The notes below the pieces were generated by a model. The model ran no database searches. It was not told where the DNA came from and saw only the letters and a program-made list of their open reading frames with translations. Positions 1 through 64,000 of a DNA stretch of 64,000 nt are shown here, in pieces. Each line of letters starts with the position of its first letter. Position 1 is the stretch's first letter. The position numbers and the translations under genes were made by a program. Origin of the DNA: Burkholderiales bacterium (GTDB lineage: Bacteria; Pseudomonadota; Gammaproteobacteria; Burkholderiales; Burkholderiaceae_D); NCBI GenBank assembly GCA_016200895.1, contig JACQDX010000017.1:1-64000 (forward strand), in the 5' to 3' direction.

Positions 1-89
1 CGTAATATTGTTCTGTGTATCTGAAAAACCATTAATCTCTGTCCGCTTTATATTCTTGCTGTCAATAATCTTGAACCTGAGCTGCAACG

Positions 90-914
90 CTAACGCGGGC
101 GGTTGCCTTCTTTCAGCACTTCGGGTTTGTAGTAACGTGAAAAGCCCTTCCAGACCATGCCTGAACGGGCTGCCTTTTCCATCATTTCTTGCAGGGCATT
201 GCGGTCATCCTGGCTCAGGCTTTTCTTTGACAGGTAGATGCCGCTGTCACTCCAGGGTAATTCAGGCAGGGGGTCAAACCTGAGTTTGTCGACCATGTCT
301 TCTACCCTGACATCTCCCTGCACCGCGCCAGCAAAAATATAGGGTGCCATGATGGAAAAATCAGCTATACCCGCTTTTAATACTCTGGCAGCAGATACGG
401 TATCTGCCTCAACGACCAGCCTGCCCTGCTTTTGTAATTCTGCGATGATGGCCTGATAGGCCTCGCCATAGTCAAAACCACGCACGACAACAACTTTCAG
501 ATTTTTTTGTTCCAGCAACTCTTGCTGATTATGTATAACAGGTCGCGCAGACTGCAGGGAAACCAGGGTGGCACGCGTATAGATCAGGGGAATGAAAAAG
601 CCAAGCTCATCCCGTTTGGCAGTGCGTATGGCAGGGAAGAGTATATCAGCCTGGCCATTCTCAAACATCGCTTCGAGGCGCGCACGTGGTACGGCTGAAA
701 ATTGAAATTGGCAAGTTTCCTTGGAAGACAGGCTGCGAAAGATATCAGGATAAATACCCGTGACGCTATCCCCATTGACGATCACGCTAAAACCCAGCGA
801 TGTGACAGGTGCATTGATCACACGTGAACAGGCAGCCTGGGCATGCAAAGAGAGATGGCTCAGTAACAACACCAGGACGATACGTACTGCATGGCACTTT
901 GTCAGCATACTCAT
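90..914 (-). CDS. Periplasmic solute-binding protein (SBP family 3-like)
   Basis: The protein has 274 residues. A hydrophobic signal peptide (about residues 1-28, ending in HAQAA) precedes a periplasmic-binding fold of the amino-acid ABC transporter type. Visible family features are an early stretch containing GIYPDIFRSL, a lobe crossing near SARPVIHNQ, and a late segment near YLSKKSLSQDDR. No permease or ATPase gene is adjacent, so it may be an orphan binding protein or a ligand sensor rather than part of a transporter. The start at 914 is chosen because an AAGGTG Shine-Dalgarno-like run lies just upstream; a TTG three bases further out is less likely. The ligand cannot be told from the sequence. 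It runs towards the window edge and nothing downstream of its stop (bases 1-89) is coding that I can support. Confidence 0.8.
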   Translation of the reverse strand: MSMLTKCHAVRIVLVLLLSHLSLHAQAACSRVINAPVTSLGFSVIVNGDSVTGIYPDIFRSLSSKETCQFQFSAVPRARLEAMFENGQADILFPAIRTAKRDELGFFIPLIYTRATLVSLQSARPVIHNQQELLEQKNLKVVVVRGFDYGEAYQAIIAELQKQGRLVVEADTVSAARVLKAGIADFSIMAPYIFAGAVQGDVRVEDMVDKLRFDPLPELPWSDSGIYLSKKSLSQDDRNALQEMMEKAARSGMVWKGFSRYYKPEVLKEGNRPR

Positions 915-994
915 CAAGATTCACCTTGATCATGAATCAGTACACGATAGAGCATAATGATGCTTTACGGCAAGCATGATTACGGTCAAAAAAG

Positions 995-1684
995 TCACTC
1001 TTTGTCACATAGAGCAAATAAACTGCTTTCTGAGAGAAGTTCTATCTTGCCATAAGCAAGCCTGATCAAACCATCTTGCCTGAAAAATCTTAATTCTTTC
1101 GATAAAGTCTGGCGCGTCATACCCAGCATCATGGCCAGCGCCTCCTGTGTAACCGGTACCACGGCATGGCCATCTTTTTGGCGATTCGCCACCTCAGCCA
1201 GCAACAACAATCGACGTGCCACTCTCGCACGCACTGAACGCAGGCCTGCATCTTCGACTATGCCATATAGCAGGCGTATGCGTCTTGCCAGCATGCGGGT
1301 AATTGCGGTGGCGAAGGAATTGCGTTGCATGAGACTGCGAAAAACTTGCGGTTCCAGCACCAGTAACGCCACCTCAGTCAATGCGGTTGCATCATGAGTG
1401 CGCGGCAACTCATCAATGAGAGAAATTTCACCGAACCAGGTTGCCGCCTCCAGAAAAATAAGTATGGCTTCGCGCCCTTCCGCACTGAGGGTGGACATCT
1501 TGATGCTGCCACTAAGCAGAGCATAAAAACCGCTGGGCTCATCCCCCTGGCGAAACAACATTTCACCGGGTCGCAAGCGCAAATGTTCACAAGAGACTAA
1601 CATGGTCTTACGGTCTGCCATAGGCAAGCTGGCGAACCAGGGGTCGGCCAGCAGGATGTTCATCAAGTTTGCTTGTGATGCCAT
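995..1684 (-). CDS. Crp/Fnr family transcriptional regulator
   Basis: The protein has 229 residues. An N-terminal cyclic-nucleotide-binding beta-barrel covers roughly residues 20-135 (LRPGEMLFRQGDEPSGFYAL, then a segment with WFGEISLIDELPRTHDATA). A long dimerisation helix and a C-terminal winged helix follow, with a recognition-helix stretch TQEALAMMLGMTRQTLSKEL. There is no FNR-type cysteine cluster at the N-terminus, so it is not an Fe-S oxygen sensor of the classical kind. Whether it binds cAMP cannot be judged. It is divergent from the HD-domain gene at 1805, and the 120-bp gap contains an imperfect palindrome that could be its own operator. The start codon is ATG, without a strong Shine-Dalgarno site. 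Confidence 0.9.
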   Translation of the reverse strand: MASQANLMNILLADPWFASLPMADRKTMLVSCEHLRLRPGEMLFRQGDEPSGFYALLSGSIKMSTLSAEGREAILIFLEAATWFGEISLIDELPRTHDATALTEVALLVLEPQVFRSLMQRNSFATAITRMLARRIRLLYGIVEDAGLRSVRARVARRLLLLAEVANRQKDGHAVVPVTQEALAMMLGMTRQTLSKELRFFRQDGLIRLAYGKIELLSESSLFALCDKE

Positions 1685-1735
1685 GAAAGATAAGTCGTTC
1701 GCACGAATAGATGAAATGAATTGTAAAGTATTTGA

Positions 1736-1754
1736 CAGTTTGAGTTCAAAACTG
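1736..1754. promoter_or_regulatory. Imperfect palindrome between divergent genes
   Basis: CAGTTTGA and TCAAAACTG face each other across GT, an inverted repeat with one extra base on one arm, and a TTGACA hexamer overlaps its left edge (1732-1737). It sits between a Crp/Fnr gene and an HD-domain gene. The core TTGA-TCAA resembles half-sites of the Crp/Fnr family, but its 2-bp spacing is shorter than the usual FNR box, so binding by the neighbouring regulator is only a guess. Confidence 0.35.
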
Positions 1755-1804
1755 CGTTTAAGGTATGTCTGTAAAGCTTATACGTCTAATCAGGGAGTAT
1801 TCAA

Positions 1805-2395
1805 ATGCAACATCGCGCGCAATTTGTCCGCATGGAGGACAGTACCCAGGAAGACTGGCAAATCATTGCTGGCGAGTTCAAGCATTTTGTCCAGGGCTTG
1901 CCCGACAGGGTCATGCAACATCTGCGTTTGCTGGAGGGGGACTATGGCGGTTTCCCGATAGACCGCTTTACCCATTCGTTACAAACCGCCACGCGTGCCT
2001 TGCGGGATGGCCGTGATGATGAATATGTCTGTTGTGCGCTATTGCACGACATAGGCGATACATTGGGATCTTTTAACCATCCTGATATTGCAGCAGCGAT
2101 CCTGAAGCCCTTTGTCAGTGAAGAGAACCTGTGGATGGTGCAACACCATGGCATATTCCAGGGCAATTACTTTTTCCATCACATAGGCATGGACCGGGAC
2201 ATGCGCGAGCAGTTCCGAGGGCACCCGCATTTTGAGCGTACGGCAGAATTTTGCGCCTTGTACGACAACCCGTCTTTCGATGCGCATGCAGAAACTTTCC
2301 CGTTGGTGGAATTTGAACCCATGCTGACCAAGCTGTTCAGCCAGCCGCGCAATACCATCTACAAGGCTGCCATCAGCGATAACAACGACAAATAA
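1805..2395 (+). CDS. HD-domain protein (predicted phosphohydrolase or oxygenase)
   Basis: The protein has 196 residues and carries a compact HD domain. The HD motif is in CCALLHDIGD (about residues 78-87), and a second metal-ligand helix is in VQHHGIFQGNYFFHH (about 112-126). The histidine-rich second helix and the length resemble predicted HD phosphohydrolases related to PhnZ and myo-inositol-oxygenase-like di-iron enzymes. Those enzymes oxidise C-H bonds rather than hydrolyse phosphoesters, so either chemistry is possible. No phosphonate gene is adjacent. A GGGAG Shine-Dalgarno site lies 8 bases before the ATG. It is followed by a hairpin and then by the aldolase-SDR pair. Confidence 0.75.
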   Translation: MQHRAQFVRMEDSTQEDWQIIAGEFKHFVQGLPDRVMQHLRLLEGDYGGFPIDRFTHSLQTATRALRDGRDDEYVCCALLHDIGDTLGSFNHPDIAAAILKPFVSEENLWMVQHHGIFQGNYFFHHIGMDRDMREQFRGHPHFERTAEFCALYDNPSFDAHAETFPLVEFEPMLTKLFSQPRNTIYKAAISDNNDK

Positions 2396-6378: not shown

Positions 6379-7737
6379 TTACTTCTTGATTTTGACTGGA
6401 CGCTGCCAGCCATCGATCGTGATTTGTTTTGCGCGTGAGACGGTCAGCTTGCCATCTGGTGCATCCTTGGTCAGAGTGGTGCCCGCGCCTAGCGTCGCGC
6501 CTTTGCCAACCCGCACTGGTGCCACCAGTTGTGTATCACTGCCGATGAATGCATCGTCCTCGATGATGGTACGGGATTTGTTCACGCCATCATAATTGCA
6601 GGTAATCGTGCCTGCGCCGATATTGACGCGGCTGCCTATGGTGGCGTCACCAATATAGGCCAGGTGATTGGCCTTGCTGTGCGCGGCGATCTGGCTGTTT
6701 TTGACTTCAACAAAATTACCGATATGCACGTCTTCTGCCAGTTCGGTACCTGGGCGCAATCTGGCATAAGGGCCTATCTGTGATTTGGCACCGACGATGG
6801 CATCTTCGATGTGGCAAAAGGCTTTGATCGTGCTGCCTGCTGCTATACGCGCATCCTTGATGACGCAGTTCGGGCCTATCGTCACGCCATCTTCCAGTTG
6901 CACCTCACCGATAAAGACGCAGCCCACATCAATTAACACATCACGCCCGCATTGCAGGTTGCCACGCACATCTATGCGTGCCGGGTCATACAGGCCCACG
7001 CCTTGCTCCAGCAATTTGAGGGCGATATTTTTTTGATGCGTGCGTTCCAGTTCGGCCAGTTGTACCTTACTGTTGACACCCAGGGTTTCCCAGACTGCAT
7101 CTGGCTGGGCTGAGACGACTTCCACTCCATCGGCAACGGCCTGGGCGACGATGTCGGTCAGATAATATTCACCCTGAGCATTCTTGTTGGACAAATTGCC
7201 CAGCCATTTTTGCAAATGCGCCGTTGGTATCGACATGATGCCGGTATTGGTTTCTGTGATCTGGCGCTCAGTCTCACTCGCATCTTTTTGTTCGACGATG
7301 CGTTTGATGATGCCTTCTTCCCTGACGATGCGGCCAAGACCTGTCGGGTCTGCCATGTCCACCGTCAATATGCCCAGCTTGTCTTTGCCAGCCGCCACGA
7401 TGAGACGTGCCAGGCTGGCAGGCGTGGTCAGTGGCACATCACCATACAAGACCAGGGTAGGCTGACTAACATCCAGCACAGGCAAAGACTGGGCGACGGC
7501 GTGGCCGGTACCCAGTTGGGGTTCTTGCAGTGCAAAGCGCAAGTCTGCGGCGGCAACGGTCGTTGGCACTTGTTCACCACCATGGCCATAGATCACGCAA
7601 ATAGTGCTGGCTTGAAGCTGGCGCGCTGTGGCGATCACGTGGTTCAGCAAAGGCTTGCCTGCCAGCGTATGCAAAACCTTGGGCAGGGAAGACTGCATGC
7701 GTTTGCCCATGCCTGCAGCAAGAATGACGACGTTCAT
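6379..7737 (-). CDS. glmU: Bifunctional GlmU
   Basis: This is the bifunctional enzyme of cytoplasmic UDP-GlcNAc synthesis. Its C-terminal domain acetylates glucosamine-1-phosphate with acetyl-CoA, and its N-terminal domain transfers UMP from UTP, feeding peptidoglycan and lipopolysaccharide. It has 452 residues, close to the 456 of the E. coli enzyme. The N-terminus carries the nucleotidyltransferase signature LAAGMGKRM and the lysine of [13 protein letters not shown]. The C-terminal third shows the left-handed beta-helix hexapeptide pattern and the acetyltransferase region [11 protein letters not shown]. It is divergent from the Fur-boxed operon and convergent with the TPR gene. glmS is not adjacent in this window. 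Confidence 0.97.
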
Positions 7738-62187: not shown

Positions 62188-62537
62188 ACTTGGACTCAAT
62201 GGGGCTCAAAAAAGGCTATCGGAAATTTCTGTTCGGTGTTCTGTCCTGCATTGCCCTGAATTGCCTTTGCATCTGCAGACATTTCAAACTACCCGGCCTG
62301 CTGCCAAAATGCCAACTAATTATTTAATGAAGAAAAATCAGGGGGCTTTAGTATATACCGTTAAAAATTGTTAAAACCATCTTCTGTGACAACACAAAGA
62401 TTAAATCTTGCGTATTGTGGTAAATGAACTGGTCTGACCAGGTCGAATACTAATGCCAGCTTAGCTTTTCATCCATTTCTTTTATTAATTGAATCGGTTA
62501 CTCTCATGAAAAATTTCTTTTGAGCAACCAATATACT
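62188..62537. other. Intergenic region upstream of the TPR gene
   Basis: This 350-bp region carries the promoters of the cyclase (minus) and TPR (plus) genes. It contains a five-codon frame (ATG at 62506, stop at 62521-62523) that overlaps a TTG possible start of the TPR gene. No strong palindrome or terminator is visible. Confidence 0.4.
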
Positions 62538-63689
62538 ATGGACTTATACGCCACCGATAGTGAAGTTACGCGGTTAGAGCAGCGCTTGACCGGAACGGTG
62601 GTGCAAGAACAACTTGACGAGTTGCTCACACTGGCCTGGCACCTGCGTCAGCGCGACAGTAGTCGCGCTCTGAACTTGTGCGAACAAGTCAGCAAATTAC
62701 TGACTACCTCGGCCAGGACGGACACTGACAAGGCGCTGGTCTACTTGCGTCTGCAATTGATCAGGGCTGAAGAAAAATGGCTGCATGCCGATCTTGACAG
62801 TGCAGCAGCCATCATCCACGCGATACTCCGCCATCCCGATGTACATCTGGATCCAGCTGCCCTCAGCGATGCCCACCGCATCCTGGGCTTCATCTTCTCG
62901 GATCAGGGCAAGCACGTTGAATGCGACATAGAAATGGCCATTTCTATTGATGAAGCCAGCAAGGGAGATGATATCTTGCGCAAGCAATGTACCGCTGCTG
63001 CCCTGGCCAGGGTCGCCGTCTTGCGCGATGACAAATTAGCCAAGTCTTACTTTGACCGCTATTTCGGTTCCAGAAATCCCCCCAAGGAAATCCATCCTGG
63101 CCTGACGGCCTTGATGGATGATTTTCTCGGTTTGCATGCAGGCTTGAATGGTCACCAGGACGATTCGGTGGCGCATTTAAGCAAGGCATTTCAAGCCTGC
63201 CTGGATTCTGGCCAGATACGCCGCGCCATCCTGACAGCGGCGAATATAGGTTACAGCTACAGCAAGGCAAATGATTTTGAAGCTGCGCTTGAATGGTTGC
63301 AAAAGGCATTGAAGCTGGCCAAACCTACGGGCTGGGCACCGAGCATAGGCAATTGCCTGATGCAAATAGGCGACACTTTGCGCAAAATGGGCTCACTCGA
63401 TGCGGCCGACCAAATATTGCATGAAGCACTGGAACAATTATCCAGGCTTACCGGCTCGCGCAATTATGCATTGACCATCAGCGTCCTTGCTGATGTCGCA
63501 CTCGACAGGCATGACTACCATCTCGCATTGAATCTTTTCTCCCAACTGGCTATGCTGCAAGGTGCGCAAGAACAGGCCGATTTGCAAGAAGCTGCCAGGC
63601 TTGGCCAGGCAAAGGCACAAGCCAGACTCAAGCCTGCGGTCAGGGAAACTGTGGTTCACAGACACGACACACTTGTGGCAAAGCGTTAA
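62538..63689 (+). CDS. TPR-repeat protein
   Basis: The protein has 383 residues from the ATG at 62538, or 389 from a TTG at 62520; neither has a strong Shine-Dalgarno site. It is wholly helical with repeated pairs such as RRAILTAANIGYSYSKANDF, FEAALEWLQKALKLAKPTGW and YHLALNLFSQLAMLQGAQEQ, matching tetratricopeptide repeats. The pattern resembles the N-terminal TPR module found before GGDEF domains in related genomes. Here the chain ends after a basic tail (VVHRHDTLVAKR) with no catalytic domain. It may be a stand-alone scaffold or a truncated regulator. It has no signal peptide. The repeat array begins about 75 bp downstream. Confidence 0.78.
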   Translation: MDLYATDSEVTRLEQRLTGTVVQEQLDELLTLAWHLRQRDSSRALNLCEQVSKLLTTSARTDTDKALVYLRLQLIRAEEKWLHADLDSAAAIIHAILRHPDVHLDPAALSDAHRILGFIFSDQGKHVECDIEMAISIDEASKGDDILRKQCTAAALARVAVLRDDKLAKSYFDRYFGSRNPPKEIHPGLTALMDDFLGLHAGLNGHQDDSVAHLSKAFQACLDSGQIRRAILTAANIGYSYSKANDFEAALEWLQKALKLAKPTGWAPSIGNCLMQIGDTLRKMGSLDAADQILHEALEQLSRLTGSRNYALTISVLADVALDRHDYHLALNLFSQLAMLQGAQEQADLQEAARLGQAKAQARLKPAVRETVVHRHDTLVAKR

Positions 63690-63763
63690 TTACTCTTGTG
63701 CAACATCTGACTAACTTGTATAAATAGGACTTACGCAAAACCACCCCAAAGCGTTCCAGCTCC

Positions 63764-64000
63764 TAGCCATACTACAGTACTGTCTTCGTCGCTACGGTGC
63801 AGTCGAAGTTTCAGACAACATGTTGTCTGCCGACGTAACGAACCACCCTTGCAAGGGTGGTTTCCTAGAGCGATAGGTGTAGTTGGGATTTCGAACAACA
63901 TGTTGTCCGCCAACGTAACGAACCTCTCTTGCGAGAGAGGTTTCCTAAAGCGATAGGTGTAGTTGGGATTTCGGACAACATGTTGTCCGCCAACGTAACG
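63764..64000. repeat. Tandem array of 80-bp palindrome-bearing units
   Basis: Two exact-length 80-bp units occupy 63841-63920 and 63921-64000. They differ at only seven positions by my count, and a diverged partial unit precedes them (best match 63801-63840, probably from about 63764). Each unit has a first palindrome of about 22 bp (AACCACCCTT in unit 1, AACCTCTCT in unit 2, with matching complementary arms) and a second palindrome of 18 bp (CGGACAACATGTTGTCCG in unit 2). Arm differences compensate in pairs. The conserved rest reads GCGATAGGTGTAGTTGGG, and each unit ends CAACGTAACG. The array continues past the window edge, with no gene of its own seen here. Confidence 0.85.

Follow-up and report, generated by a model that had tools for sequence, protein, structure and literature searches.

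Bacterial genomes commonly contain small palindromic repeats, most of them unexplained. The end of the window, by which we mean the whole 64,000-nucleotide stretch of contig JACQDX010000017.1 (assembly GCA_016200895.1) analysed here, holds a tandem array of such palindromes, for which an earlier note proposed selection either for a folded RNA or single-stranded DNA (ssDNA) or for paired protein half-sites. We asked what this element is, whether its structure is maintained and how it came to lie where it does.

Reading of the sequence gives a tandem array of three contiguous 80-bp units (63797–64036), whose starts lie exactly 80 bp apart with no spacer between them (Table 1). The repeat had been expected to run past the window edge and does so: three units are counted on the extended contig, where the third is complete, with its last 36 bp outside the window. 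The 80-bp spacing first described also stands, but the description of two units plus a diverged partial one does not, as the 'partial' copy is apparently the full-length unit 1 under a different phasing of the boundaries. Two palindromes per unit with paired changes can be read directly in the array; the first is AACCACCCTTGCAAGGGTGGTT, then AACCTCTCTTGCGAGAGAGGTT in units 2 and 3, and successive copies of the second are CAGACAACATGTTGTCTG, CGAACAACATGTTGTCCG (one mismatch) and CGGACAACATGTTGTCCG. In keeping with the note, this is not a CRISPR, given that the units are contiguous 80-bp copies without spacers. By eye, the array is also unlike an attC site. A consensus scan around it found neither promoter nor terminator.

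Table 1. Coordinates of the array, its host element and the upstream gene in the window (M, the folded module of each unit; R1, covariance model of M).
Feature	Position	Strand	Remarks
Upstream ORF, 389 aa, TTG start	62520..63689	+	tetratricopeptide-like by eye; ends 35 bp before the MITE
MITE left terminal inverted repeat	63725..63740	+	TAGGACTTACGCAAAA, IS701-type end
MITE left interior, 'L' module	63741..63796	+	by eye, degenerate here
Unit 1, 80 bp	63797..63876	+	M at 63796–63865 by R1 (89.6 bits, E = 6.5e-21)
Unit 1 helix P1	63802–63806 with 63830–63834	+	stem statistics and folding
Unit 1 5-nt bulge	63807–63811	+	between the P1 5′ arm and P2
Unit 1 hairpin P2	63812–63818 with 63823–63829	+	P1–bulge–P2 spans 63802..63834
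Unit 1 hairpin P3	63841..63862	+	AACCACCC-TTGCAA-GGGTGGTT; the first palindrome of the earlier note
Unit 2, 80 bp	63877..63956	+	M at 63876–63945, R1 87.2 bits
Unit 3, 80 bp	63957..64000 in the window, to 64036 on the contig	+	M at 63956–64025; R1 59.1 bits as cut by the window edge, 93.6 bits on the full contig (L021 3957–4026)

The genes associated with the array had been expected beyond the edge; instead, the array forms the inner part of a MITE, with ordinary-looking genes on either side. What the window holds is a single copy of an IS701-ended Undibacterium MITE that carries module M in triplicate, and we infer that the window's genome is itself Undibacterium, which belongs to Burkholderiales (NCBI taxonomy). 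Copies of the family are bounded by inverted repeats TAGGACTTACGCAAAA...TTTTGCGTAAGTCCTA, and the end pattern (two or fewer mismatches) occurs at 109 + 112 places in the genome, compared with 15 + 15 for a reversed-pattern control. In the window copy, the L module consists of degenerate forms of the AGCTGCGTTGCAGCT and GTACTAAAGTAC hairpins of other copies, followed by TCTTCGTCGCTACG (by eye). Identical 5-mers flank TAGGACTT...AAGTCCTA in 27 of 104 distinct family-A copies, compared with 0.87 expected from permuted pairs (offset and length were picked as the best of a scan). The 5-bp target duplication of the MITE is family-wide, but none can be seen at the window copy because its right end is truncated and matches only positions 1–19 of the right-end model, to about 64055. 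Beside such a MITE end in a related genome is an IS701-like transposase remnant of 46 aa (NF049921, E = 3.1e-12; below the whole-protein cut-off, as expected of a fragment), and an IS701-like transposase gene of the Paraburkholderia plasmid pBN3 has an identical 14-base MITE end on both sides. The element shares the ends TAGGACTTACGCAAAA and 5-bp duplications of IS701-family MITEs but differs from them in having an interior module common to elements with other ends.

Comparison of the array with the window's genome yielded at least 44 matches (40 of 107 candidates scored), of which about 38 were unit-bearing copies with 72–92% identity to the array and the remainder were either short hits on copies without the unit or palindromes matching themselves. 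A form of the MITE of ~104 bp without the 80-bp unit was found in at least 40 copies: of 141 candidates 40 were scored, and every one of these matched the query copy at 92–100% identity. Among 119 collected loci, chosen mostly for holding the unit, complete elements carried one unit in 95 cases (in two of which the right end is split), two units in 6 and three in 2 (including the window's), with elements cut by contig ends set apart; six further elements were unit-less (9 rows, as 3 elements were read on both strands). The divergence of the unit-bearing copies, and the recurrence of a similar interior with changed ends, could indicate that M is the old interior of one MITE superfamily, without present host function, whose structure is kept for transposition (a cis need for DNA or RNA). 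However, the copies without M are abundant and more alike, which argues that M is not needed for the spread of that MITE, and we consider this explanation improbable.

Some copies of the MITE have unusual surroundings. Truncated copies at L027 121–253 and L051 1854–1980 are joined at nearly the same point to CTTATTGACTGCACTTTTACATAAAAGTTCATCTATTT..., and these fusions suggest a second composite element. At L053 2096–2404, a unit-bearing and a unit-less MITE lie ~10 bp apart in opposite orientations, a possible composite. Downstream of the array itself, the truncated right end directly adjoins the start of the following gene (contig 64036–64093; L021 4037–4094), which has a possible TTG start within MITE-derived bases (L021 4054). 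A protein similar to the product of this gene is encoded at L021 5535–6443, and between the two lies a gene for a truncated-haemoglobin-like product (L021 4871–5425, by eye).

M also lies between ends other than those of the window's MITE, both in Undibacterium G024, G026, G025 and G009 and at one locus of the window's genome (L057); these ends include TAGGGTCTGTTGACATATATTTTAG, CACTTTTTCGCCCATCTGGA and GCTTGTTGGAAAATTAATCTGGC. In other genera, the ends around M are CTAAGAGGCTGTTGCAAACACAG, CTAAGGGCCCGCGCAGGAATAAGTTAG, GTAGGGCGGACAGCGAAGC and GTTCAAACCAAAACGTGTGCTGG, and dRS3-like ends (GTCATCCCGGCG...GGGATCCAG) also bracket it (by eye). Of 51 contexts outside the Undibacterium family-A set, an inverted repeat flanks M at p ≤ 0.01 in 23 and does not in 28, in a test with 100 shuffles of the left flank that can flatter GC-rich palindromic flanks. 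In all, M was located in eight or more inverted-repeat elements that differ in their ends, namely seven with significant arms and the window's. Pairwise comparison of these eight end sequences gave 2 of 28 results at p ≤ 0.05, which is about the chance level and hence no sign of kinship among them. The L module seems to travel between elements too: an L-like hairpin (CCGTACT...AGTACTGTCT) recurs elsewhere and can point either way (by eye). It precedes M in reversed form in L192–L194 and, again reversed, follows M in Cupriavidus metallidurans CH34 (L327, by eye; M confirmed by R1).

Module M is found within and beside genes as well. In one genome, the reading frame of uvrD runs through an M-bearing repeat (L276 1501–1571; ORF 2–2371, minus strand), and the encoded UvrD has ~47 residues more than that of E. 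coli, between residues 239 and 243 of the latter; this insert holds M and precedes the conserved GDDDQS motif. The tmRNA gene (ssrA) was identified by ARAGORN beside M in 4 of 44 loci (L200, L260, L272 and L281), with M downstream on the same strand in each. These copies are preceded by an inverted copy of the tmRNA T-arm region that resembles the letters of each genome's own tmRNA, and the array at L267 is adjoined by a tmRNA-end-like fragment (both by eye). Around L270 1501–1570, M seems to interrupt a tyrosine-recombinase (integrase-like) gene just before the LRH box (by eye). The flanking inverted repeat is not significant for M in this gene (p = 0.73) or in livG (L195, p = 0.10; genes identified by eye). 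The window array had no match among phages and plasmids, and L304, an array of the second family discussed below, had none among plasmids; one M copy matches two megaplasmid records of Cupriavidus metallidurans (M confirmed by R1). Searches of viral contigs (IMG/VR) with two patterns gave 0 and 1 match, and contig L299 holds a full-length M (7163–7232; R1, 91.4 bits).

Across these contexts, M is ~70 nt long and hardly varies in its layout, in which a short helix leads through a GNA/GNA internal loop to a helix of 5 bp, followed by a conserved 5-nt bulge, a first hairpin and a second one. Of the 142 full-length copies recovered by a sequence-only profile, 76 fall below 90% mutual identity, and in these non-redundant copies the three stems have standard pairs in 89.3% of cells, compared with at most 50.5% when partners are slid by 1–3 positions. 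In alignment A1 (66 sequences: 64 of the 76 plus L206 and L207, with 12 left out for indels or decay), 96.5% of cells are paired, compared with 80.8 ± 0.5% in shuffles, and 190 cells are doubly changed, compared with 39.3 ± 5.1, a count reached in none of 500 shuffles. Double change is seen in 17 of the 20 stem pairs. RNAalifold, without a given structure, returned the same helices together with two outer pairs, G2–C and T3–A, outside P1. These pairs (2–44 and 3–43) are absent from R1 and are excepted from the leaning of alignment A3, which was built by the model, towards the model's structure. Among 102 distinct rows (of 108 R1 matches), pair 3–43 is T–A in 78, C–G in 15, A–G in 3, T–C in 1 and a gap in 5, and the C–G rows are spread over 12 loci from four or more GTDB families. 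The covariation first noticed between neighbouring units is confirmed across copies of M, and this T–A/C–G outer pair adds to it.

Several unpaired bases of M rank among its most conserved positions. At the junction of the outer helix and P1, G-N-A lies opposite G-N-A with both middle bases free; G4·A42 is present in 93 of the 102 rows and A6·G40 in 78, the latter replaced by A–T in 8 and G–C in 5. This loop resembles tandem sheared G·A pairs. The bulge is nearly invariant (T15 in 101, T16 in 97 and G12 in 96 of 102 rows), A42 is constant in 101 of 102, and the linker, like the bulge and the GNA/GNA loop, is nearly fixed while the stems covary. The letters of P2 and P3 vary freely; the centre of P2 differs in length between copies and covaries (C–G in 49 and T–A in 14 of 66). 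A small extra hairpin 3′ of P3 was present in 23 of 108 R1 matches, counted only with loops from a preset short list; examples are CCC(TGCAA)GGG, CGC(TGCAA)GCG and CTC(CGCAG)GAG, in which the stem letters vary.

Dyad symmetry of this kind, together with the covarying P2 centre, could also mark a double-stranded DNA site in which each palindrome is an operator for dimeric regulators. However, P1 is closed across an asymmetric bulge, the letters of P2 and P3 vary freely, unlike those of operators, the P2 centre is not constant in length, and G·T and A·C are unequally tolerated (see below), making such a site very unlikely. Of the two kinds of selection first proposed, that for a folded RNA or ssDNA is supported, whereas paired protein half-sites are disfavoured by the helix across the 5-nt bulge, the covarying pair outside the palindromes and the conserved unpaired bases. 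Alternatively, the paired changes could be mutational rather than selected, arising by template switching in hairpins (quasipalindrome correction). Palindromes are known substrates of template switching, P2 and P3 are near-perfect palindromes, and variants are common to the units of one array. Yet this process predicts neither the constant geometry with its fixed 5-nt bulge and conserved T15 and A42 (each 101 of 102) nor the covariation of pair 3–43 in at least four GTDB families, and broken single changes are still common in P3 of Undibacterium copies (49 broken cells versus 65 doubly changed and paired). We therefore regard a purely mutational origin as quite unlikely, and favour a selected single-strand fold.

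A fold of a single strand should tolerate G·T above A·C on that strand. On the strand of M, G·T outnumbered A·C by 85 to 41 in 119 anchored sequences (sequence-only set), and by 58 to 39 when the closing pair of P3 was left out; P1 showed no G·T excess (19 versus 23 in 136 unique sequences). A further count gave 25 versus 10 in 81 rows, of which one (L207:922–991) was in A1 and the other 80 lay outside the training set. This asymmetry modestly favours the strand shown. Two window units folded with z-scores of −3.4 and −1.9 when read on this strand, compared with −2.9 for each of them on the complementary strand; both strands fold about equally well, so that energy does not decide between them. 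The orientation of M relative to genes is weakly biased.

A search of Burkholderiales genomes with the 80-mer, proposed as a check in the earlier note, found copies elsewhere: BLAST matches were obtained in 22 of 294 genomes and 8 of 44 genera of the window's family (window's genome included). With R1, M was found in 25 of 399 genomes and 19 of 158 genera of the order Burkholderiales (window's genome included) and in 97 of 297 genomes and 34 of 68 genera of a second family of the order (window's genome outside the set). In the phylum, 4 of 398 genomes matched (window's included), and the sole one outside the order was weak (E = 6e-4). Copy numbers from R1 are lower bounds, based on no more than 12 (order and phylum) or 17 (second family) scored candidates per genome. 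Titled genome contigs matching a module pattern comprised 29 stretches, all from Undibacterium. Tandem arrays of M recur with different periods: five copies at ~186 bp in G136, three at ~149 bp in G685, four at 93–100 bp in G1202 and two at 70 bp in G1322. Neither outcome that had been named as speaking against a structured element, copies that vary without pairing or no copies elsewhere, occurred.

Some features of M recall transposition through ssDNA. A GTAG/GGAG-like tag precedes the bulged hairpin, copies are inserted in livG and in the integrase-like gene without a significant flanking inverted repeat, tandem copies occur, and GNA/GNA loops also form in DNA; M could thus be a minimal IS200/IS605–REP-like element that folds as ssDNA (5′ GNAG tag plus bulged hairpin), is cut and moved in trans by a Y1 (RAYT-like) transposase and rides along in MITEs. 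A fixed GTAG/GGAG tag was not found, however, as the second tag base can be any base (T in 38, A in 25, G in 22, C in 11 and a gap in 6 of 102 rows). A RAYT/REP origin was also rejected on the basis of the 30 Y1_Tnp loci fetched among the matches listed, none of which contained M when scanned with R1. Y1_Tnp matches were present in 16 of 20 genomes searched, and the four genomes with none (incomplete assemblies, 71–99%) all had unit-like matches. The mobility of the family-A MITE is, moreover, accounted for by its ends and target duplications. We consider movement by a Y1 transposase unlikely. The GTAG- and CGTC-tagged REPs (Di Nocera et al. 2013; PMC3733652) are described as intergenic and sometimes intragenic, also in replication and repair genes. 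As described there, they share with M the tag-like bases before a hairpin, and some M copies lie within dRS3-like (CGTC-1) palindromes (by eye), but M is longer (two hairpins, a bulge and a GNA/GNA loop) and its tag is variable.

The element had been reported as unrecognised among CRISPRs, attC sites and named non-coding RNAs, which was partly wrong: judging by shared properties, with the known repeat compared by its description, M is very probably the Beta-proteobacterial repeat element, BRE (Hot et al. 2011; PMC3110155). BRE is described as a GC-rich tandem repeat of 75–91 bp with variable copy number, found in Bordetella, Comamonadaceae and Azoarcus, intergenic and sometimes inside ORFs (PMC3110155). 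M is likewise betaproteobacterial, intergenic and sometimes intragenic, and tandem, with periods of 80 bp (Undibacterium), 93–100 bp (G1202) and 70 bp (G1322) that fit this description; the periods of ~149 bp (G685) and ~186 bp (G136) are unlike BRE spacing. The available parts of the BRE description contain no Undibacterium copies, MITEs with different ends, consensus structure or ssrA neighbourhood (PMC3110155). If M is BRE, our finding adds a new branch, in Undibacterium, to a repeat that has a name but no explanation. As far as the open-licence matches listed show, its consensus fold and its presence within several distinct kinds of tiny transposon appear to be new. Among those matches, the BRE paper was the only close published candidate for M. 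BRE also bears on the nature of the folded strand: it lies within the bprJ region, described as the source of the ~80-nt transcript BprJ1 (PMC3110155), and for this reason, provided that BRE and M are the same thing, we hold RNA to be about twice as probable as ssDNA.

Scans of the window stretch and of sets of 15 and 19 loci against Rfam gave no match over M at gathering score; at L200 and L281, tmRNA_permuted matches below threshold overlap an edge of M by 18–23 bases. In architecture, the MITE with M is like the pneumococcal BOX element, in which outer modules with TIRs and TSDs enclose a central folded module that can be absent or repeated (Croucher et al. 2011; PMC3049150). In both, going by the description of BOX, the central fold is nearly independent of the ends; however, the organism is unrelated, the part of the source considered does not describe boxB in elements with other ends (PMC3049150), and we claim no kinship.

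On the ends, target duplications, fold and contexts observed here, the best explanation as a whole, to which we give a probability of roughly 0.6, is that M is a selected single-strand fold that rides as a passenger of non-autonomous transposons and acts in RNA. M is most likely a structured RNA (less likely ssDNA) passenger that became tandem by unequal exchange. The transposon ends would supply mobility and would change to suit the active transposase while the interior is retained, with M as an old selected structure that may have passed between element families by recombination. M would act either within a transcript of its surroundings or as a separate RNA of ~80 nt, in a fold (P0/GNA–GNA/P1–bulge–P2 plus P3) that may present the bulge and linker to a partner, the simplest being an RNA-binding protein or the RNA-decay machinery; no partner protein for M was found. 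Insertions of M beside genes would as a result be tolerated or useful. Unequal exchange between 80-bp repeats, or slippage, could have produced the tandem units, and this would account for the variants shared within one array. That M is an order-wide structured RNA or ssDNA, unmatched in Rfam, exchanged between unrelated families of tiny transposons, selected for its fold and binding a Burkholderiales partner is a tentative proposal, to which we assign less than even odds.

M combines a well-supported fold and a covariance model with natural contexts in which it is present or absent, in tandem, in different elements and in frame, and so makes testable why such repeats keep their structure. If M is BRE, then BRE gains a structure and a likely mode of spread.
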